IMG/VR virus record: IMGVR_UViG_3300005264_000020
Coordinates: 1-36,914 of that record
DNA from: a virus
Length of the DNA stretch: 36,914 nucleotides
Strand: one strand, 5' to 3'
Shown piece after piece: positions 4,641 to 34,145 of the stretch (positions within the stretch are counted from its first letter, which is position 1; each line of letters opens with the position of its first letter). Below the pieces are notes generated by a model. The model saw only the letters and a list, made by a program, of their open reading frames with translations. It was not told where the DNA came from and ran no database searches. Both the position numbers and the translations under genes were made by a program.

Positions 4641-5191
4641 ATGATAAAATTTAAAAACAATAAACACACCGAATACCAAAAAAATGAATTTCCGAATGAG
4701 TTTAAATGTGTAATAAGCACCCACAACTACCATTCAGTATTAATCGAAACAACACCAGATGTGAGATGTTTTGATTTATTTGATTATAGTGATGTGTTAT
4801 TATATGATTTTTTAAGTGATAAAGAGCTGAAATCATTACCTGTAGAAAGTGGAATTTATAATATTGTTGTTAATATTAAATGGTGGATGTATCTAATTAT
4901 GATGAACCTAATGAATTTGAACCTAATTTTATATTTTCAAATTTCATTAAATTGTTATCATTATAAAATGGATAAATTAACAATAACAACAAAATACAAC
5001 ACACGAAAACTATATTGATCAGACGAAAATGAAGTGTTTGGTGGAGAATTATTTGTTTTATTTTTGGTTCTATTAGTAAAGACTATGATAGTAGTTTTGA
5101 AGGATTAAATAATGTGACTGAAATTACATTTGATAAATACGATGAAATGTTTATTAGTTATATGGATGATAAAAATAACCTAACATATTAA
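4641..5191 (+). pseudogene. Accessory gene broken by several frame changes
   Basis: The frame from 4641 reads normally to about 4880 (ending near GIYNIVVNIK). The natural-looking continuation VDVSNYDEPNEFEPNFIF is one frame back, to a stop at 4964-4966. Coding-like sequence then appears in the original frame on both sides of a TGA at 5016-5018 (SDENEVFGGELFVLF follows), and finally in the shifted frame from about 5065 (GSISKDYDSSFEGLNNVTEI) to a stop at 5189-5191. At least three frame changes and one in-frame stop separate what was probably one protein of about 180 residues. Function unknown. Either a decayed gene or a cluster of base-calling errors. Confidence 0.6.
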
Positions 5192-5195
5192 AATA

Positions 5196-5561
5196 ATGAA
5201 TGATGATATATTTAACAATTTAACTCGTGAAATTGACCGAATGGATTCTATGTTGGTTAATGCTAATTTAGCAAAACAAAATATGTTTATAGATTTGCTA
5301 ATTAATACCAAACAAGAACATTTGATAGAACAAGTAAAAACAAGGGGCTTACCAACAACGATTATATTGAGTGAGGATTTAATTGAATATAAAGGCGTGT
5401 TTGGATATTATTCAACTGTTCAATTTTCTCAATATCTTGAAAAAACAACAATTGTGCTTAGTTGGATGAAACCATTTGATTTAACAAATAATGTAGAAAT
5501 ACCAATAGAGCAAGTTTCTAACCCAGTTTTTAATTATATGCAACACCTAAAATATTTATAA
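5196..5561 (+). CDS. Hypothetical protein
   Basis: 121 residues. An N-terminal helix-rich half (residues 1-50) precedes a more beta-like, aromatic half (YKGVFGYYSTVQFSQYLE around residues 66-83). No recognised family. It starts 4 bases after the broken 4641 gene. Confidence 0.65.
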   Translation: MNDDIFNNLTREIDRMDSMLVNANLAKQNMFIDLLINTKQEHLIEQVKTRGLPTTIILSEDLIEYKGVFGYYSTVQFSQYLEKTTIVLSWMKPFDLTNNVEIPIEQVSNPVFNYMQHLKYL

Positions 5562-5573
5562 AAATACAAAATT

Positions 5574-5957
5574 ATGGCATGGGGAATAGATTTTACCGCA
5601 GATGTTTTTATTAGTAGTGTATCATTTAATTCAGTCGAGCAAATAAATGATTTAATTGAAGAACTATCAACTGAAATAGAAGAACAGCGTAGGTTATTAA
5701 ATATGTATGTTGTTGGAGACATCACAAAAACAATACAAACAGATGGTAATGTGATATATGAGGTAGATGTAATAATGACTAATATATTGGACATTATAAC
5801 TGAAAATACTACTAAAATATATAAGTTACAATTGTATAAAGATTACATACAATACTTACCAGAAAAACAAGATGAAGATTATTGTCGGTTTTGTGATAAT
5901 GGAAATAGATTACTTGGTGGTAAGGTTTGCAAACATTGTGATAGAACAAAAGAATGA
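5574..5957 (+). CDS. Helical protein with C-terminal zinc ribbon
   Basis: 127 residues. Residues 15-45 form a Glu-rich amphipathic helix, probably coiled coil. The last 25 residues hold two Cys pairs (YCRFCDNGNRLLGG then CKHC), a CxxC-N10-CxxC arrangement typical of small zinc ribbons. Binding of nucleic acid or a partner protein is inferred from the ribbon only. Stop overlaps the next start (ATGA at 5954). Confidence 0.7.
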   Translation: MAWGIDFTADVFISSVSFNSVEQINDLIEELSTEIEEQRRLLNMYVVGDITKTIQTDGNVIYEVDVIMTNILDIITENTTKIYKLQLYKDYIQYLPEKQDEDYCRFCDNGNRLLGGKVCKHCDRTKE

Positions 5958-19023: not shown

Positions 19024-19782
19024 ATGAATAAAAAATATTTTAAGGCATTTATCAGAACTGTAAAAACAATTGATGTAGAAACCAGAGGGGATGATTTAGA
19101 ACATTCCAATATCATTCGGGAACCATTAATTTTAGCCTCTGATAAAAAAGAAGTAAAAGCAATCCTTTTAGAAAAATATCCTCAATTTTTTCAGAAAAAT
19201 AAGGTATATGAAAAAGGGACAAAAGATAATGCACAATTCTTTTATGTCGTTATATTTGAGCTGTATAACCATGAAAAACAACTAATAGAAGAGGGTGGAT
19301 GGCGATGTAATGAATGTGGACAAATACATAAAAATAAATACGAATATAAACCAATGATTAATGAAAAATTATTTGGGGCAGATAAATTATTTTGCGGATT
19401 TGATTGTTTTGAAAAATATAAACAAAAACATTTTAAAGATTTAACTATGTTTGAGGGCGAAAATTATTATGTAAAAAAAGAAAGCCCAAATTACATTTAC
19501 AAAATTACTGAAAAATTAACAAATAGATGTTATATAGGAAAAACAAGGAACGAACCGTTTTTTCGATGGTGGAACCACCTTTCAAAAAGTAGCTCTCCGT
19601 TTGGTTTATATTTAAGAAAAACAAAATTAAGTGAATGGACTTTTGAAGTAATCGAAGTTTTGCCATCTAATATTGAAGATAAACAGGTTTTTGAAATCGA
19701 GAGTAAATACATAGTTGAATTTGATGCTATCAATAACGGTTTTAATGCTTTAATTAGCAACAAATCGGCTGTATTGAATTAG
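19024..19782 (+). CDS. Zinc-ribbon plus GIY-YIG nuclease-like protein, cargo of the third cassette
   Basis: 252 residues in two parts. Residues 1-130 form an unfamiliar alpha/beta domain with a CxxC...CxxxC zinc site (Cys95, 98, 124, 128; WRCNECGQIH and FCGFDCF). Residues 155-245 are a GIY-YIG nuclease domain: YIYKIT 157-162, CYIGKT 169-174, Arg181 in FFRWWNHL, Glu224/226 in FEIESKYI and NNGFNAL at 237-243. GIY-YIG enzymes cut DNA as homing, restriction or repair nucleases. Whether this one acts in defence, inter-phage competition or element mobility is unknown. It is the largest cassette cargo. Confidence 0.75.
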   Translation: MNKKYFKAFIRTVKTIDVETRGDDLEHSNIIREPLILASDKKEVKAILLEKYPQFFQKNKVYEKGTKDNAQFFYVVIFELYNHEKQLIEEGGWRCNECGQIHKNKYEYKPMINEKLFGADKLFCGFDCFEKYKQKHFKDLTMFEGENYYVKKESPNYIYKITEKLTNRCYIGKTRNEPFFRWWNHLSKSSSPFGLYLRKTKLSEWTFEVIEVLPSNIEDKQVFEIESKYIVEFDAINNGFNALISNKSAVLN

Positions 19783-21257: not shown

Positions 21258-21626
21258 ATGAAATGGAATTATAGAGTATGTACAAAATTACATAAGTATC
21301 CCAAACACGATGAACTTGTTAGGTTATTTTCTATTTATAGTGTTTATTATGAAAATGGAACACCTTGTAGTTATGGTGTGGTAGATGTTAATGGTGTGGA
21401 GCAACCACAAAACCCTGTATCAAATTGGGAAGATTTTGGTGATTTGCATGGTACACACAAATTGATAAAAACTGCATTTAAAAAACCAATATTAGATTTA
21501 GATAATTTCCCAACTGAATATATTGATAAGACTGTAATTAAATATATGTTAAAAACCCCAAAATTATTAAAACACATAAAGTCTCAGTTGACTACATATT
21601 TTAATAAAAAGGATTATTCTTCATAA
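21258..21626 (+). CDS. Hypothetical protein
   Basis: 122 residues. The N-terminal half (RLFSIYSVYYENGTPCSYGV near 22-41) reads as a beta-hairpin domain seen in many small Bacteroidota phage proteins; the C-terminal half is Lys-rich helix. Its 3' end overlaps the convergent 21601 gene by 26 bases. Confidence 0.65.
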   Translation: MKWNYRVCTKLHKYPKHDELVRLFSIYSVYYENGTPCSYGVVDVNGVEQPQNPVSNWEDFGDLHGTHKLIKTAFKKPILDLDNFPTEYIDKTVIKYMLKTPKLLKHIKSQLTTYFNKKDYSS

Positions 21627-21903
21627 CCTCAATTTCATCTTCTAATAACAAACATTTTGAAATGAAGTTATCAGTATCATCTGTAGTCAAATCAAACCAT
21701 TCACCCAATATATGTTTATGGTGAAACCTTCTATGTAGTAAATACTCAATCTTAATAAAGTTGAATGTTTTGTGAAAATGTATAATTGATAACTGGGATG
21801 GATTGCCAACTTGTAATTCTTTCAACCTATACTCTAATTTCTTAGTAGTATAGCCAATTTTGAAGTAGTTACCATCAGTAATTAAATAAACAAATCCAAT
21901 CAT
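21601..21903 (-). CDS. T5orf172/MUG113-type GIY-YIG-like protein
   Basis: 100 residues on the minus strand. GFVYLI at 3-8, KIGYT at 16-20, an Arg-rich helix (RLKELQVGNP), IEYLLHRRFHHKH and a final GEWFDL match the T5orf172 domain, a GIY-YIG superfamily branch found in phages and toxins. Nuclease activity is likely from the superfamily but not demonstrated. It is a lone minus-strand gene between + strand runs, suggesting independent acquisition. Confidence 0.75.
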   Translation of the reverse strand: MIGFVYLITDGNYFKIGYTTKKLEYRLKELQVGNPSQLSIIHFHKTFNFIKIEYLLHRRFHHKHILGEWFDLTTDDTDNFISKCLLLEDEIEVMKNNPFY

Positions 21904-26886: not shown

Positions 26887-27151
26887 TTTAGGTTCAAAAA
26901 TATATACTGTTGTCGAAAAAGAATTTGATGATAATAAGCAAGGTAGTTGTTATCCAGAGTTAGGGAGAATATTTATTGCAAATAAACTGAATGGCATTGA
27001 CATACCGACAACATCTAAACAACAAACATTATATCACGAATTAATACATGTGGTATTACATGAATTAGGTTATTTTGATTTAAGTAGAAATGAACAATTA
27101 GTTCAACAAATTGCTATATTGTTACATCAATTTGAAACCACAAAACAATAA
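26870..27151 (+). CDS. HEXXH putative zinc metallopeptidase-like protein
   Basis: 93 residues. TLYHELIHVVLHELG puts HELIH at 56-60 with further H64/E65, followed by RNEQLVQQIAILLHQ where E79 could be the third zinc ligand. The arrangement recalls ImmA/IrrE (M78) or SprT-like minimal peptidase folds found in phages. Peptidase activity is inferred. It overlaps the methyltransferase start by one base. Confidence 0.65.
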   Translation: MTKTFNLGSKIYTVVEKEFDDNKQGSCYPELGRIFIANKLNGIDIPTTSKQQTLYHELIHVVLHELGYFDLSRNEQLVQQIAILLHQFETTKQ

Positions 27152-28106
27152 TGGAAATACTAAATATATTAAGTCTTTTCGATGGAATGAGTTGTGGTCA
27201 AATAGCATTAGGTAGAAGTGGTATTACATATCAAAATTATTATGCAAGTGAAATTGATAAACATGCTATTAAGGTAACACAACATAATTACCCAAATACA
27301 ATTCAAATTGGTGATGTATCTAAAGTTAGTTATAAAAACGGAATATTGACTACTGATCATGGTAGTTATGATGTAGGTAAAATAGACTTATTAATTGGTG
27401 GTAGCCCTTGTACTGGTTTTAGTTCTGCTGGTAAAGGTTTGAATTTTGAAGACCCAAGAAGTAAGTTGTTTTTTGAATATGTGCGAATTAAAAATGAAAT
27501 AAATCCTAAATACTTTTTACTTGAAAATGTAAGAATGAAACAGGAATATCAAGATATTATAACTAAATATATGGGTGTAAACCCAGTCATGATAAATAGT
27601 TCATTAGTTTCGGCACAAAACAGGGTTCGTAATTATTGGGTCAACTTTGAAATAACACAACCAAAGGATAAAGGGATGAAATTAAGTGATATATTAGATG
27701 ATGGTGTTTACATAAACCCAAGTGCAATTCGGGGTAGGATGTTAAACAAAGCAACTATTGTTGGTAGGAGGTTAAACGAACAAGGAAAACGGCAGGATTA
27801 TGATAAAACAGTTCCAATAACACAATGTTTAGAAGTACGAAAGAAAAATAGAGATAAAAGTAATTGTTTAACTACGGTTGCAAAAGATAATGTATTAACT
27901 TATATGGTGTAGGTAGATACCCAAACGCATATAAAGATAAATTACCATTTCGTAATTATTCAATTGCTGAGTATTGTAGATTACAAACAGTACCAGAACA
28001 TTATTTTGATGGTGTTGCAAGTGATAATCAAATAAGAAAAATGATTGGTAATGGTTGGACAGTTGATGTTATAGTTGACATACTAATACAAATGAAAAAT
28101 GAATAA
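27151..28106 (+). pseudogene. DNMT3-like C5-cytosine methyltransferase, frameshifted near its C terminus
   Basis: From 27151 the frame holds motif I (LSLFDGMSCGQIAL 7-20), motif IV GGSPCTGFS with catalytic Cys87, and motif VI (LLENVRM), then stops at 27912 after LTYMV. One frame over, from about 27905 to 28106, the missing C-terminal motifs continue: NYSIAEYCRLQTVPEHYFDG and MIGNGWTVDVIVDIL. The total of 956 bases is one short of a multiple of three, so a single-base deletion near 27890-27910 explains it. If real, motifs IX-X are lost and the enzyme is probably dead. Tandem paralogue of the next gene. Confidence 0.7.
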
Positions 28107-29019
28107 TATGAATGAAAATACAGAAATAAATGTTTTAAGTCTATTTGATGGTATGAGTTGTGGGCAAATTGCCCTTGATAAATTAAACATAAACGTAGGA
28201 AACTATTATGCAAGTGAAATAGATAAAAACGCCATTAAAGTTACACAATCGAATTTTCCAAATACAAATCAAATTGGTTCGATTGTTGATGTTAATGTGT
28301 CAGATTTACCAAAAATTGATTTATTAATTGGTGGTAGTAGTTGTCAAAACTTTTCACTAGCAGGTAATAAAAAAGGAATGGTAACAGTTAATAACATTGA
28401 AGTTACTACATTGCAACAATATTTAACATTAAAAAATGATGGGTTTGAATTTAGTGGTGAAAGTTATTTGTTTTGGGAATATATTAGAATATTAAAAGAA
28501 AGCAAACCTAAATATTTTTTACTTGAAAATGTTATGATGGGCAAAAATTGGCGTGACATCATAACTGATGCCGTGGGTGTTGAACCAATTATGATAAATA
28601 GCAATTTATTAAGCATTCAAAACCGAAAGCGGTTATATTGGACAAACATAACCAACATAACACAACCAACAAATAATCACAAATTATTAAGAGATTATTA
28701 TAGTAAAACTTATGATGATAAATTAGTATTGCGTGGTAAGGGTTTAAATAAACTAAATAGACCCCGCAATAGAGCAATTGACATTTTAAGTGATAAATCC
28801 CCAACCTTAATGAAGGCACAGGAAAATAAACCAACCGATTCTATTGTGTTTAAACATGGTTCAATATATAGATACCCAACCCGTGGTGAAATGGAATTGA
28901 TGCAAACAGTACCAAATGGTTATACTAATGCAGTTAATTGTAGAATTGCAAGTGGTTTGTTAGGTAATGGTTGGACAGTTGATGTTATTGTGCACATTTT
29001 TAAAAATATGGAAATATGA
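28099..29019 (+). CDS. DNMT3-like C5-cytosine DNA methyltransferase
   Basis: 306 residues, full set of motifs: LSLFDGMSCGQIAL (13-26), GGSSCQNFS with candidate catalytic Cys82, LLENVMM, INSNLLSIQNRKRLYW and the C-terminal MQTVPNGY/LGNGWTVDVIV. The usual Pro before the catalytic Cys (SPC) is Ser here (SSC), which could lower or alter activity. The architecture without a large variable region matches small DNMT3-like phage and Bacteroidota enzymes. It starts inside the end of its paralogue (8-base overlap) and overlaps the next gene by 4 bases. Target site unknown. Confidence 0.85.
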   Translation: MNNMNENTEINVLSLFDGMSCGQIALDKLNINVGNYYASEIDKNAIKVTQSNFPNTNQIGSIVDVNVSDLPKIDLLIGGSSCQNFSLAGNKKGMVTVNNIEVTTLQQYLTLKNDGFEFSGESYLFWEYIRILKESKPKYFLLENVMMGKNWRDIITDAVGVEPIMINSNLLSIQNRKRLYWTNITNITQPTNNHKLLRDYYSKTYDDKLVLRGKGLNKLNRPRNRAIDILSDKSPTLMKAQENKPTDSIVFKHGSIYRYPTRGEMELMQTVPNGYTNAVNCRIASGLLGNGWTVDVIVHIFKNMEI

Positions 29020-29567: not shown

Positions 29568-30989
29568 ATGTATCAAAATGCTTATTACGACACTTACAAT
29601 AAAATGGTTCATGTGTGGGATGACCAACATGGACACCAAAAAATAGAATATGAACGTTATGCTTATGCTAAAGATGATGAAGGTGAATATACTTCATTGT
29701 ATGGCGATAAATTATCAAAGATAACTAAATTTGATGGTATAGACGAAACAACATTATTTGAATCTGACATTAAACCAATAGATAGGACATTAATTGATTT
29801 ATACATTAATTCAGATGAAGTGAGTAAGAATCATCGTATTTTCTTCTTTGACATTGAAACCAATACAAAGGGTGGAATTTCTGAGCCAGAAGATGCTTGG
29901 CAACCTATTACTTCAATTGCATATTTTATTGATGGTAAAATAAAATGTGTTATTTTAGACAATAAAAATAGATTAAAATTCATAAAGAAAAAGTATAAAG
30001 AATATGATACTGTAATCATACCATTTACTACTGAGTATGATATGCTTGATGAATTTATAAAAGATTGGGTTAAAGTTCGACCAACGATAATTACTCATTG
30101 GAAAGGTGATTCATTTGATGTTCCATATTTAATTAATAGAATATCAAATGTTTTTAATGATACAAAAACTAAGCTATTAAGCCCAATTGGTAAAGTGCAT
30201 TATAATAGATATAAGAAACTTTGGGTTATCGCTGGTGTTAGTAGTTTAGATTATATGAAACTATATAAAAATTTCACTTATACTGGAAAACCATCTTACG
30301 GACTAGATGCTATCTGTACTTCTGAAATTGGTCGTGGGAAAGTAAAATATTCAGGTAACTTAGACGATTTAATGAGACTTGATATAAATAAGTTCATTGA
30401 ATATAACATTGAAGACGTATTATTGATGGTTGACTTAGATGCTAAATTAAAACTGATTGAATTAGCACAAGCAATTTGCCATAAAGGGCATGTAATATAT
30501 GAAGATGTGTATGCAAACAGTAGAACTTTGGATGGTGCAAGTATTGTACATTTAAACAAGAATAATATAATTGCACCTAATAAATTACCAAAATACACTT
30601 TACAATTAAAACGAAAACATAATATTGGTGAGCAACGTATATACGTAACAAATGTAATTGATAAGAATAGAATACCATCAAAAGGTAGTTTACAATTTAA
30701 GAAATCTAAAACAGCTAAAATACATGCTAAATATATTCAGTTTGAACATAACTATTTTATTTTAGAAACACCATTGAAAAAAACATTACTTGTTGAATAT
30801 CCAATGAAAGTTGAATTGATGGGTGCATTTGTGGATTTAACTGAACCTGGGTTATTTGAATGGGTTGGGTCGGAGGACTTAGTAAGTCTTTATCCAAAAA
30901 TAATTGAAACTCAAAACATTAGTCCTGAAACAAAACTTGGTCGTATAACAAATTGGTCTGAAATAACTCCAATGAAAGACCATCGCTAA
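29568..30989 (+). CDS. Family B DNA polymerase, N-terminal part (T4 gp43-like)
   Basis: 473 residues. The 3'-5' proofreading exonuclease is complete: Exo I FDIET (94-98), Exo II around HWKGDSFDVPY (Asp184) and Exo III YNIEDVLL (Asp283). The start of the polymerase domain follows, with motif A EDLVSLYPKII at 436-446 (Asp437) and NISPET as in T4 gp43. The protein then ends after NWSEITPMKDHR. Palm motifs B and C lie in the separate ORF at 32310, beyond an endonuclease gene. The two halves must associate to form an active replicase; fragmentation at this kind of place is known in T4-like phages. Confidence 0.9.
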   Translation: MYQNAYYDTYNKMVHVWDDQHGHQKIEYERYAYAKDDEGEYTSLYGDKLSKITKFDGIDETTLFESDIKPIDRTLIDLYINSDEVSKNHRIFFFDIETNTKGGISEPEDAWQPITSIAYFIDGKIKCVILDNKNRLKFIKKKYKEYDTVIIPFTTEYDMLDEFIKDWVKVRPTIITHWKGDSFDVPYLINRISNVFNDTKTKLLSPIGKVHYNRYKKLWVIAGVSSLDYMKLYKNFTYTGKPSYGLDAICTSEIGRGKVKYSGNLDDLMRLDINKFIEYNIEDVLLMVDLDAKLKLIELAQAICHKGHVIYEDVYANSRTLDGASIVHLNKNNIIAPNKLPKYTLQLKRKHNIGEQRIYVTNVIDKNRIPSKGSLQFKKSKTAKIHAKYIQFEHNYFILETPLKKTLLVEYPMKVELMGAFVDLTEPGLFEWVGSEDLVSLYPKIIETQNISPETKLGRITNWSEITPMKDHR

Positions 30990-31019
30990 AAATAATATTT
31001 TTTATATTTATTAATACAC

Positions 31020-31034
31020 GGATATAGTATATCC
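31020..31034. repeat. Perfect 15-base palindrome-type hairpin
   Basis: GGATATA/TATATCC around a central G lies in the 70-base gap between the first polymerase half and the endonuclease gene. It could mark the insertion border, act as an operator, or be an RNA processing site. Confidence 0.4.
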
Positions 31035-31059
31035 AACATTATTAATAATATATAAAAAA

Positions 31060-32313
31060 ATGGAATTTTATTCATACACAACAAAAACCGAAAACGAAAA
31101 ATGTTTAATTACAAACATAAAAAAGGAACAATGTTACAACCGCAAAGGTAAACCTCAATATAAATTATTGATAGATTATTATTATGATTATTTTGAAACT
31201 GTGTTATATCCTGAATACTTTGATAATAAAAGAAACCGTATTTTACAGTTTAAGTATAAATGCTTTATAAATGAGATAATAATTCATGGTGGTAATTTAG
31301 ATTTAGTCAATAAAGAATATGTAGAAAAATATCACTTTGAATATAATAACCTACATGTTAATTATTTCACACGAAAAAATGGTGGAGACATTAAAAAGGG
31401 AACACAAGCATTTAATGATAGACAATCAACAACATCAAAACAAAGTTTTATAAAACGTTATGGTAAAGAGGAAGGTGAAGAAAAATTTAAAAAGCATTTT
31501 AAACATATACATGATTCAACCAGTGGTGATAAGCATTGGACAAGGAATCTTGATACTACCATGAAAGAACATATTATGAAATTGCATAATATAACAGAAA
31601 AAGAAGCTAATAATTATTTTAATCATTACAACGCATGGAAGTGTGATGGTATGACGGATAGAGAAATATATGAGCGGAGGCGAGACACAGGAATTTATGC
31701 TCAGACTTTTTATACGCCAGAGATGCGTGAACATTGGCATAAAAAAATGACAATTGTAATTGAGCAAATGAAGCAAAGTGGTGATTATCACAAAAAATTT
31801 GGATGTTGGAAAGCATGTTATAATTATGCAATAGATAATAATCTTGATTATACAGATGAAACTAGAATTGATATTTGGCACATTTTATTTAATGGTAGTG
31901 ATGTTAGACATTGGTTACGAAAAGGATTTTCACAAATTGAATCACAGCAAAGAATAAAACAAAATAAACGGTCTTCAAAACAATCTGATGATGCATTGAT
32001 GGAAATAGAAGATAAATTAAACGTAACCATTACATTTGAAAAACGGATTGATAGATATTTTTGTGATGGTGTAATAGAAAATAGTAAAATAGCAATTGAA
32101 TATAATGGTGATTATTGGCACATGAACCCAACACAGTATAAAGAGAATGATATACACAAAACAACAAAATTATTGGCTAAAGATGTTTGGAAACACGATG
32201 AAAATAAAAGAAACATAATATCAGAACATGGTTATATACCATTTATAATCTGGGAGTATGATTGGAATAATAATAAAGAAGAAATAATAAACCAATTAAA
32301 ACAATTAATATGA
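31060..32313 (+). CDS. Free-standing homing endonuclease, Vsr/EDxHD type
   Basis: 417 residues. A mid-protein SFIKRYGKEEGEEKFKKHF segment (about 129-147) is a hallmark of phage EDxHD homing endonucleases. The C-terminal nuclease core has RIDRYFCDG (Asp331), IEYNGDYWH (Glu347 to His354), DVWKHDENK (375-383) and FIIWEYDW (about 394-401), the Vsr-like PD-(D/E)xK pattern. The gene sits exactly between the two polymerase halves and its stop overlaps the second half's start (ATGA). No intron-like sequence remains around it, so it is an inserted gene, not an intron ORF. It probably cuts intact polB of competing phages, spreading itself; that is inference. Confidence 0.82.
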   Translation: MEFYSYTTKTENEKCLITNIKKEQCYNRKGKPQYKLLIDYYYDYFETVLYPEYFDNKRNRILQFKYKCFINEIIIHGGNLDLVNKEYVEKYHFEYNNLHVNYFTRKNGGDIKKGTQAFNDRQSTTSKQSFIKRYGKEEGEEKFKKHFKHIHDSTSGDKHWTRNLDTTMKEHIMKLHNITEKEANNYFNHYNAWKCDGMTDREIYERRRDTGIYAQTFYTPEMREHWHKKMTIVIEQMKQSGDYHKKFGCWKACYNYAIDNNLDYTDETRIDIWHILFNGSDVRHWLRKGFSQIESQQRIKQNKRSSKQSDDALMEIEDKLNVTITFEKRIDRYFCDGVIENSKIAIEYNGDYWHMNPTQYKENDIHKTTKLLAKDVWKHDENKRNIISEHGYIPFIIWEYDWNNNKEEIINQLKQLI

Positions 32314-34145
32314 ACAATTTCGATTTCATATCAAAAGACCAAATAATAACAATTGATTTGGTTGATAGTACGGAAGTAATAAATTTAAGTAAAACTGAAT
32401 TTGTTGAATTTGCCAATGAAAATAATATTACAATTGCATCTAATGGTGTTATGTATTCTACAAAAAAAGAAGGTTTTATCCCACATTTATTGGCTAAGTG
32501 GTATAAAGAACGTAAAGAATATAAAGACCTAATGAAAAAATACAAAAAAGAAAACAATGACGAATTAACTCAATTATACCACACAAAACAATTAACACAA
32601 AAAGTATTACTAAATAGTTTTTATGGTGTAATGGCACTTTCAGCGTTTAGATTTTATGATATGGATAACGCAGAAGCCATAACATCAACAGGTCAAGATG
32701 TTATTAAGTTTTCACGTGAGGTAATGAATAGAAAATTCAATGATAAAAATGTAAACAACTCATTCACAGTTACTTACACGGACACAGACTCAATTGCAAA
32801 GGAAAGTATGTTACGTGTAGGTAATAGTCAAATATCAATACATGATTTATTTGAAGGATATGCAACTAAAAATGGTATTGATATTAGTGATATAACTGGT
32901 CGTGAGTTTATTTTCCCAAAAGACTTACAGTTACCATATTATGATGATAACAAAGTATTGTTAGATGATGTTCACTACATAGAACGACATTACACTACAA
33001 AAGATATGTATGAAATAGAAACCTCAGATGGTAGAAAGATTATTGTTACGGAAGACCATTCATGTGTCATTTTAAATGATATAGGTGAAATAGTAGAAAA
33101 AACTCCACTGGAAATGAATGAAGTTGATGTTGTGGTAACAATCAAAGATAGTAATCTAAAATACCACAAAACAAACGTAAAAAAAATAACTAAATTAGGC
33201 AAACAAACAGATTATGTTTATGATATTGGGATGAGAGGTGGTAATCATACATTTTTCGCAAATGACATTTTAGTTCATAATAGTTTTTATTTCAAACTTG
33301 GCAATGTAACTGATAAAACAGACACTGTTAATTTAGTGAAAACAATTAAAACTGTTGATGATTATGTCAATGAAAAGCTCATACATTTCAGTAAGACGGT
33401 GTTAAATTCCGATAATAATAAACTAGTGTTCAAACCCGAAAAGATAAATTACACATCATTTAACATAGCAAAGAAGCGTTATGCAATGTGTAGTGTTTGG
33501 GATGAGGGTTATACTTATGATGAAGAAGGAACAAAACAAGCTGATAGGATTTATGATATAAATGGTAAATTTTTAGGTAAATTAATTGTAACTGGATTAG
33601 ACATAATTAGAAGTGATTTTCCACCTTCTTTTAAGGAATTTATGACAACATTAATTAAGCGAATATTGGCTAAATTTCCCAAAAGTAATATAGATGATTT
33701 TTTATTAGGGTTTAAAATCAATTTATCAAAAATAAAATTAATGGATTTAATGTTTCCAAGTGGGATTGGTGATATTGATAAATACAATGAAAATAGAGTT
33801 AGGTTTAAAATTAAAAGTGGCACACCAATACATGTAAAATCAAGTTTATATTATAATGATTTATTGGATAAGTTTAATCTTAATGAAGTAGAAAAGATAA
33901 AAAATGCAAGTAAAATAAAATGGTGTTATTTAAAAGAAAATCCATATAAATTACCATCATTAGCAATAAAATCAAGTGATGATAATCCAGAAATGATAGT
34001 TGATTATGTTACTAAATATATAGATCATGAAAAAATGTTTAATGGTAAATTAGAAAAGAAAATACAAAGTTTTTATGATGCGTTAAAATGGGGGTTAATG
34101 CCTGATAAATATACTAAACAAATAAATAAATTATTTAAGTTTTAA
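32310..34145 (+). CDS. Family B DNA polymerase, C-terminal part with mini-intein
   Basis: 611 residues. Motif B KQLTQKVLLNSFYG (93-106) and motif C TYTDTD (155-160), catalytic Asp158 and Asp160, lie on either side of typical fingers and palm sequence. The host protein resumes after the intein as SFYFKLGN at 325, restoring TYTDTDSFYF. Thumb landmarks such as AKKRYAM follow near 390. Residues 1-55 fill the gap after motif A. It starts on an ATGA overlap with the endonuclease gene. An active polymerase needs both protein splicing and association with the 29568 product. Confidence 0.9.
   Translation: MNNFDFISKDQIITIDLVDSTEVINLSKTEFVEFANENNITIASNGVMYSTKKEGFIPHLLAKWYKERKEYKDLMKKYKKENNDELTQLYHTKQLTQKVLLNSFYGVMALSAFRFYDMDNAEAITSTGQDVIKFSREVMNRKFNDKNVNNSFTVTYTDTDSIAKESMLRVGNSQISIHDLFEGYATKNGIDISDITGREFIFPKDLQLPYYDDNKVLLDDVHYIERHYTTKDMYEIETSDGRKIIVTEDHSCVILNDIGEIVEKTPLEMNEVDVVVTIKDSNLKYHKTNVKKITKLGKQTDYVYDIGMRGGNHTFFANDILVHNSFYFKLGNVTDKTDTVNLVKTIKTVDDYVNEKLIHFSKTVLNSDNNKLVFKPEKINYTSFNIAKKRYAMCSVWDEGYTYDEEGTKQADRIYDINGKFLGKLIVTGLDIIRSDFPPSFKEFMTTLIKRILAKFPKSNIDDFLLGFKINLSKIKLMDLMFPSGIGDIDKYNENRVRFKIKSGTPIHVKSSLYYNDLLDKFNLNEVEKIKNASKIKWCYLKENPYKLPSLAIKSSDDNPEMIVDYVTKYIDHEKMFNGKLEKKIQSFYDALKWGLMPDKYTKQINKLFKF
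32790..33281 (+). mobile_element. Mini-intein in polB motif C
   Basis: 164 residues (161-324 of the 32310 product). It starts with the nucleophile Ser161 (SIAKES), contains the block B-like TEDHS (247-251), the block F-like DYVYDIGMRGGNHTFFAN and ends ILVHN at block G, with Ser325 as +1 residue. No homing-endonuclease domain (blocks C-E, H) is present, so it cannot move by itself. The site, directly after the second catalytic Asp, is the classic pol-c position. Ser at position 1 and at +1 is a less common but known combination. Confidence 0.88.

Follow-up and report, generated by a model that had tools for sequence, protein, structure and literature searches.

A T4-type DNA polymerase gene of an uncultured virus, split in the palm by an EDxHD nuclease gene and interrupted in motif C by a mini-intein

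In Aeromonas phages 44RR and 25, the polymerase gene gp43 is split into 43A and 43B, and in phage 25 the gap between the two holds a freestanding homing endonuclease gene (HEG), seg43(25) (Petrov, Ratnayaka and Karam 2010, as cited in PMC2988022). Co-purification of 43A and 43B with polymerase activity has been reported for phage 25, and T4-type phages regulate HEGs by hairpins, one of which precedes seg43(25) (PMC2988022). A comparable case in another gene is nrdA of Aeromonas phage Aeh1, which is split by mobE into two functional chains (PMC2988022). A different kind of interruption is the fractured gene, in which a nuclease gene is flanked by the halves of a split intein (Dassa 2009). Split inteins that come with an HNH or a VSR/EDxHD nuclease occupy motif C of the polymerase in Aes123 and Aes508 (Aeromonas), Tenacibaculum PTm1, Klebsiella phiKp_21, and Pseudomonas MIJ3; inteins of MIJ3 and of Salicola phage SCTP-2 have been published (PMC6892783).

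We analyzed a family B polymerase locus that combines features of both groups. The window, that is, the whole stretch of DNA analyzed, is a 36.9-kb linear fragment of an uncultured virus with one polB on it, encoded as follows:

29568..30989, plus strand: polB-N, 473 aa, exonuclease domain and palm motif A (DLVSLYP)
31060..32313, plus strand: freestanding EDxHD (Vsr-like) nuclease gene, 417 aa
32310..34145, plus strand: polB-C, 611 aa before and a predicted 447 aa after splicing, with fingers, motif B (KVLLNSFYG), motif C (YTDTD), KKRY, and thumb

In the window's list of open reading frames, none of comparable quality was seen overlapping any of the three. PolB-N matched DNA_pol_B_exo1 (1.7e-21) and polB-C matched DNA_pol_B (2.4e-22) in Pfam. 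Both halves matched the DNA polymerase family PHROG 262 (1.4e-82 and 2e-72), with additional matches to PHROG 2062 (DNA polymerase) for polB-N and PHROG 1918 for polB-C, and a PDB sequence search with the window polymerase retrieved RB69 gp43 structures (1.8e-39). Clamp-loader genes lie downstream of polB-C, with one gene in between. We conclude that the window polB is a T4 gp43-type family B DNA polymerase encoded in two genes.

Among IMG/VR records, the closest relative found was L101, whose polymerase (907 aa) is intact, lacks intein and nuclease, and is ~54–55% identical to each window half. PolB-N aligns with it through W463 (nt 30956), and polB-C is alignable from residue 2 on, leaving at most one residue unaccounted for. 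The window exteins can thus be joined directly, without loss of native sequence. Together with a second split polymerase, L335 (see below), this alignment defines the junction:

30957..30989, plus strand: non-native polB-N tail SEITPMKDHR (10 residues) and stop codon
30957..32312, plus strand: entire insertion relative to the empty L101 site, 1356 bp, between the codons for W463 and for polB-C residue 2
30990..31059, plus strand: intercistronic gap, 70 nt, with a long predicted hairpin that directly adjoins the start codon of the nuclease gene
32310..32313, plus strand: ATGA shared by the stop codon of the nuclease gene and the start codon of polB-C, an overlap of 4 nt (8 nt in L335)

The split falls shortly after motif A, so that the exonuclease and motif A are separated from motifs B and C, as the preliminary description of this DNA had proposed. 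In RB69 gp43 it corresponds approximately to residue 437 (window residue 459 aligns with RB69 433), after a ...NW sequence in the palm and ~30 residues ahead of the fingers.

The hairpin in the intercistronic gap has a computed stability of −14.6 kcal/mol (z −4.2; 0 of 200 shuffled sequences were equally stable), and possibly serves translational control. It is not conserved in the equivalent L335 gap (z +0.35). The ATGA overlap is likely to mediate translational coupling, which would tie expression of polB-C to the nuclease gene. A group I or group II intron at the split was considered and is unlikely, as Rfam gave no intron match at E up to 1 over 30400–33400, which counts strongly, if not absolutely, against one. 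The only sequence at the split that does not belong to the HEG is the 70 nt upstream and the 4-nt overlap, with none downstream of the nuclease ORF, leaving no room for a ribozyme around this ORF. The earlier view that the split retains no intron sequence is thus supported. Ribosomal bypassing or frameshifting across the split was also rejected, since it would need a skip of more than 1.3 kb and the gap is filled by the nuclease ORF.

A scan with a nuclease alignment uncovered the same gene order in L335: polB-N, a full-length orthologue of the nuclease (39% identity to the window nuclease over 408 aa), and polB-C. The L335 N half likewise ends in a 10-residue tail and the C halves of the two begin alike (MNNF[DN]F; MNNFNF in L335), while motif C of L335 is uninterrupted and contains no intein. 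Both the window and L335 are metagenomic fragments; a scan of genome contigs revealed no relatives. The presence of the same split point in an independent phage indicates that the split did not arise by chance. In a polymerase tree of 24 taxa, the window is sister to intact L101 with 100/100 support, and a clade of the window with L335 is rejected by 81.7 log units (p-AU 1e-78). The split state therefore changed at least twice on this tree, and the rejected grouping means that the nuclease either arrived at the palm site repeatedly or underwent precise loss in the sister lineage of the window. Recurrent occupancy of the palm site is what a site-specific homing endonuclease would be predicted to produce.

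The fold of the middle gene product was assigned from its C-terminal part:

31966..32310, plus strand: Vsr/EDxHD catalytic domain, nuclease residues 303–417, with E315, D336, H354, and D380

The predicted structure of this domain has a pLDDT of ~95. In VIA-align comparisons, on which the fold assignment depends, nuclease residues 304–417 matched Vsr 1cw0 with Z 12.4 (111 aligned, 2.5 Å), and the domain matched Vsr 1vsr with Z 11.3 and the EDxHD homing endonuclease I-Bth0305I (3r3p) with Z 11.1. Foldseek with the full nuclease model returned nothing with E <0.001, and the TIGR00632 vsr profile matched weakly (E 0.023). D336, H354, and D380 are invariant across 13–14 homologous sequences, and E315 is common to the window and L335. 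The D-H and H-D spacings are those expected for Vsr-type sites, and it is from spacing that catalytic roles were assigned to these residues. The structural model thus confirms the middle ORF as a nuclease with the Vsr/I-Bth0305I (EDxHD) fold and its catalytic residues. It forms an optional insertion at the palm junction, being present in the window and L335 and missing in L101, and is predicted to cleave DNA sequence-specifically and to home.

A nuclease-only scan with single-sequence patterns gave no match, and a scan with the full-length window/L335 pair returned the L335 contig again and nothing further. A truncated relative of the window nuclease was found in the gap of a split intein at polB motif C of L220 (8758–9222; L336–L340 are near-identical). 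This remnant is 44% identical to the window nuclease over 154 aa (122 bits; the next match scores 81 bits), showing that members of this nuclease lineage also occur away from the palm junction. A tree of the nucleases based on 89 columns of the catalytic domain had deep supports near 0, and grouping the window nuclease with polB motif-C nucleases by this tree was dropped for that reason.

The second interruption lies in polB-C:

32790..33281, plus strand: class 1 mini-intein, 164 aa, polB-C residues 161–324, without endonuclease domain

Its boundaries, YTDTD|S ... HN|SFYF, are inside motif C, whose empty form in L101 reads YEDTDSVYF, and it has the signature residues Ser1, TEDH (TxxH), a terminal VHN, and Ser+1. 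Splicing-domain profiles matched polB-C above their cut-offs: Intein_splicing in Pfam (PF14890; 5.4e-11, 43 bits, cut-off 35.8), TIGR01445 (25.7, cut-off 24.5), and TIGR01443 (20.4, cut-off 15.6). The Aes123 PolB1 intein, whose crystal structure is 9HTH, resembles it (E 1.7e-13), and in L259 the identical position in motif C is occupied by a homologous intein, likewise of 164 aa. The window intein would remove itself to leave a C chain of 447 aa, the length expected beforehand. At the palm split no intein was found; the intein is contiguous and lies in polB-C, and hence the arrangement differs from that of fractured genes.

The window resembles phage 25 in that polB forms two cistrons separated by a freestanding HEG, with a hairpin ahead of the HEG (PMC2988022); unlike the window's EDxHD nuclease, the phage 25 HEG is segD-like (GIY-YIG). 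In the related phage Aes123, 43A and 43B are divided at a point in the fingers, further downstream than the palm split of the window. The third element in phage 25 is a group I intron, in place of which the window has an intein. With the Aes123/PTm1 group the window shares a homologous nuclease domain and, at an identical position in motif C, a homologous intein. An upstream 43A/43B split is present in Aes123 and PTm1 too, at another point, within the fingers; the nuclease of the group is located between the intein halves, while that of the window is outside a contiguous intein, at the palm site. SCTP-2 and L258–L260 share with the window a contiguous motif-C mini-intein, in a polymerase gene that is otherwise unsplit. 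The nrdA/mobE locus of Aeh1 is alike in that a freestanding HEG splits an essential enzyme, and differs in the gene affected and in its HNH-type HEG.

Both halves of the window polymerase are under normal constraint. Exo I–III, motifs A, B, and C, and KKRY are kept in the window and in L335. Unique changes in the window versus L101, counted against four outgroups, were 42/45, 33/46, 43/43, and 35/46 for the N half and 34/40, 30/32, 30/41, and 35/50 for the C half; none of these differences is significant. Judged by these counts, neither half evolves faster than the intact sister, and the equal rates fit a functional enzyme of two chains, one of them spliced, better than a gene in decay. L335 showed more changes than two of the three comparison lineages in relative-rate tests, and we therefore limit the statement on normal constraint to the window. 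The window Exo II (30099–30128) reads WKGDSFD, with K replacing the usual N (WNGDDYD in L101), a substitution that counts against the explanation favored below. The predicted structure of polB-C was of low confidence, too poor for judging assembly, and was left out.

We consider it probable that the locus is a T4-type polB carrying two independent selfish elements, a palm-homed EDxHD nuclease and a motif-C mini-intein, and encoding a heterodimeric enzyme. In the proposed scheme, a freestanding EDxHD homing endonuclease would home into a fixed palm-coding site just past motif A, turning polB into two cistrons, the second of which would be translated via the ATGA overlap with the endonuclease gene. 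The separate 164-aa mini-intein in motif C would excise itself, and the active enzyme would be a heterodimer of polB-N and spliced polB-C, with one palm active site across two chains. The preliminary description had envisaged the same two elements, a freestanding Vsr/EDxHD nuclease between the halves and an endonuclease-less motif-C intein, and a replicase requiring both subunit assembly and protein splicing. The nuclease fold, the intein splicing domains, and the empty sites of L101, which placed both insertion points (W463/polB-C residue 2 and YTDTD|S), bear out the former; the latter is supported by the constraint on both halves.

The two elements are most readily regarded as independent because each occurs alone: L335 has the nuclease without an intein, and in L259 and SCTP-2 the mini-intein is present but a nuclease of this type is not. 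More broadly, the contiguous motif-C mini-intein is unaccompanied by a window-type nuclease throughout L258–L260 and SCTP-2. If instead the nuclease cut intein-free motif C, 480 bp downstream of its own gene, the two would spread together by collaborative homing and the split would be a by-product. Collaborative homing of freestanding endonucleases with introns is documented in phages, phage 25 carries a freestanding HEG between 43A and 43B, the L220 remnant in a motif-C gap is, L335 apart, the sequence most similar to the window nuclease, and nuclease genes of a different family lie outside the motif-C intein, near polB, in L259 and L182. However, L335 has a complete nuclease and yet an uninterrupted motif C, an expected target; the same palm junction is occupied in two separate branches, as expected of homing into its own site; and the L259-type nuclease also adjoins an intein-free polB (L293). 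In the papers on collaborative homing consulted, where intron cases are established, we found no example involving an intein. We consider such joint spread improbable; if it did occur, an endonuclease-less intein would be mobilized in trans, in co-infecting phages, by a freestanding gene within the same essential gene.

Two further explanations were considered. A split intein whose parts flanked the nuclease might formerly have joined the two polymerase halves at the palm split, these intein parts being lost later. It is true that 48–49 of 88 surveyed EDxHD nucleases lie between split-intein halves and that the overlap of the nuclease stop with the C half matches split-intein loci, but neither the window nor L335 retains intein residues at the split, where the exteins join losslessly, and no intact or split relative inspected has a palm-site intein; such degeneration of a fractured gene seems to us very unlikely. 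We give least credence to the split polB being a decaying, non-functional copy in a phage replicated by another polymerase. The genome is incomplete, being a 36.9-kb fragment, and the window contains a 695-aa ORF (226–2313) with polymerase-like motifs recognized by eye (DMDSAQPTLL, LYDGLAYL), for which Pfam and PHROG gave no family match. Against decay, the exonuclease and polymerase motifs are all retained in the two halves, rates equal those of L101, clamp-loader genes are close downstream, and L335 retains the same architecture.

Scans seeded with the polymerase yielded 187 distinct polB loci. Seven of these have an insertion in motif C, and a single one, L183, has a true A/B split, in addition to a split intein. 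With so few cases, co-occurrence statistics for the two kinds of interruption were dropped. Neither the palm split point nor the combination of a nuclease with a contiguous mini-intein was found in the annotated phages searched. Both kinds of insertion are already known; the novel features are the position of the split in the palm, the recurrence of this position, and the presence in one gene of a contiguous mini-intein together with an EDxHD nuclease located outside it. An additional natural break point for the polymerase is thus provided by the palm, between motifs A and B, and rates in the window indicate that an active site built from two chains, one of them splicing, is under constraint equal to that of the unsplit sister. 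Occupied sites (window and L335) and an empty one (L101) make homing by an EDxHD endonuclease directly testable, and the break point and the motif-C mini-intein could serve split-polymerase and intein engineering.

Other polymerase loci encountered in the survey have further arrangements. In L183 (7001–12416), polB is in three pieces, with an HNH nuclease in the motif A/B gap and a split intein with nuclease; in the closely similar L182 (7001–10531) the split intein is present but both nucleases are missing from the gene, and an L259-type nuclease lies ~1 kb upstream. The polB of L259 (5675–8716) is intact apart from its 164-aa motif-C mini-intein, and a nuclease gene (4827–5675) overlaps its start; this nuclease is homologous to those within the motif-C split inteins of L181 and L183, and the neighboring clamp-loader gene also appears to be split by an intein and a nuclease. 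A huge-phage polB (L004 6001–13485, LR756508) has a motif-B intein, a later split, and a second intein beside motif C. In PTm1 (L008 1896–3861), the 43A/43B gap contains two ORFs, one of them EDxHD-like (IIFEYHGSYWH); the VSR endonuclease annotated within the split intein is additional to these. Many related phages (L145, L156, L161, and L262–L286) encode, upstream of intact polB and sometimes directly adjoining it, a conserved EDxHD-like protein of small size (~126–133 aa).

In the window itself, two neighboring ORFs resemble C5-cytosine methylases (27151–27912 and 28099–29019), with Pfam matching only the N-terminal third of the family. On the minus strand, ORFs with GIY-YIG and T5orf172/MUG113 domains (19024–19782 and 21601–21903) are candidates for further mobile endonucleases of the same fragment.
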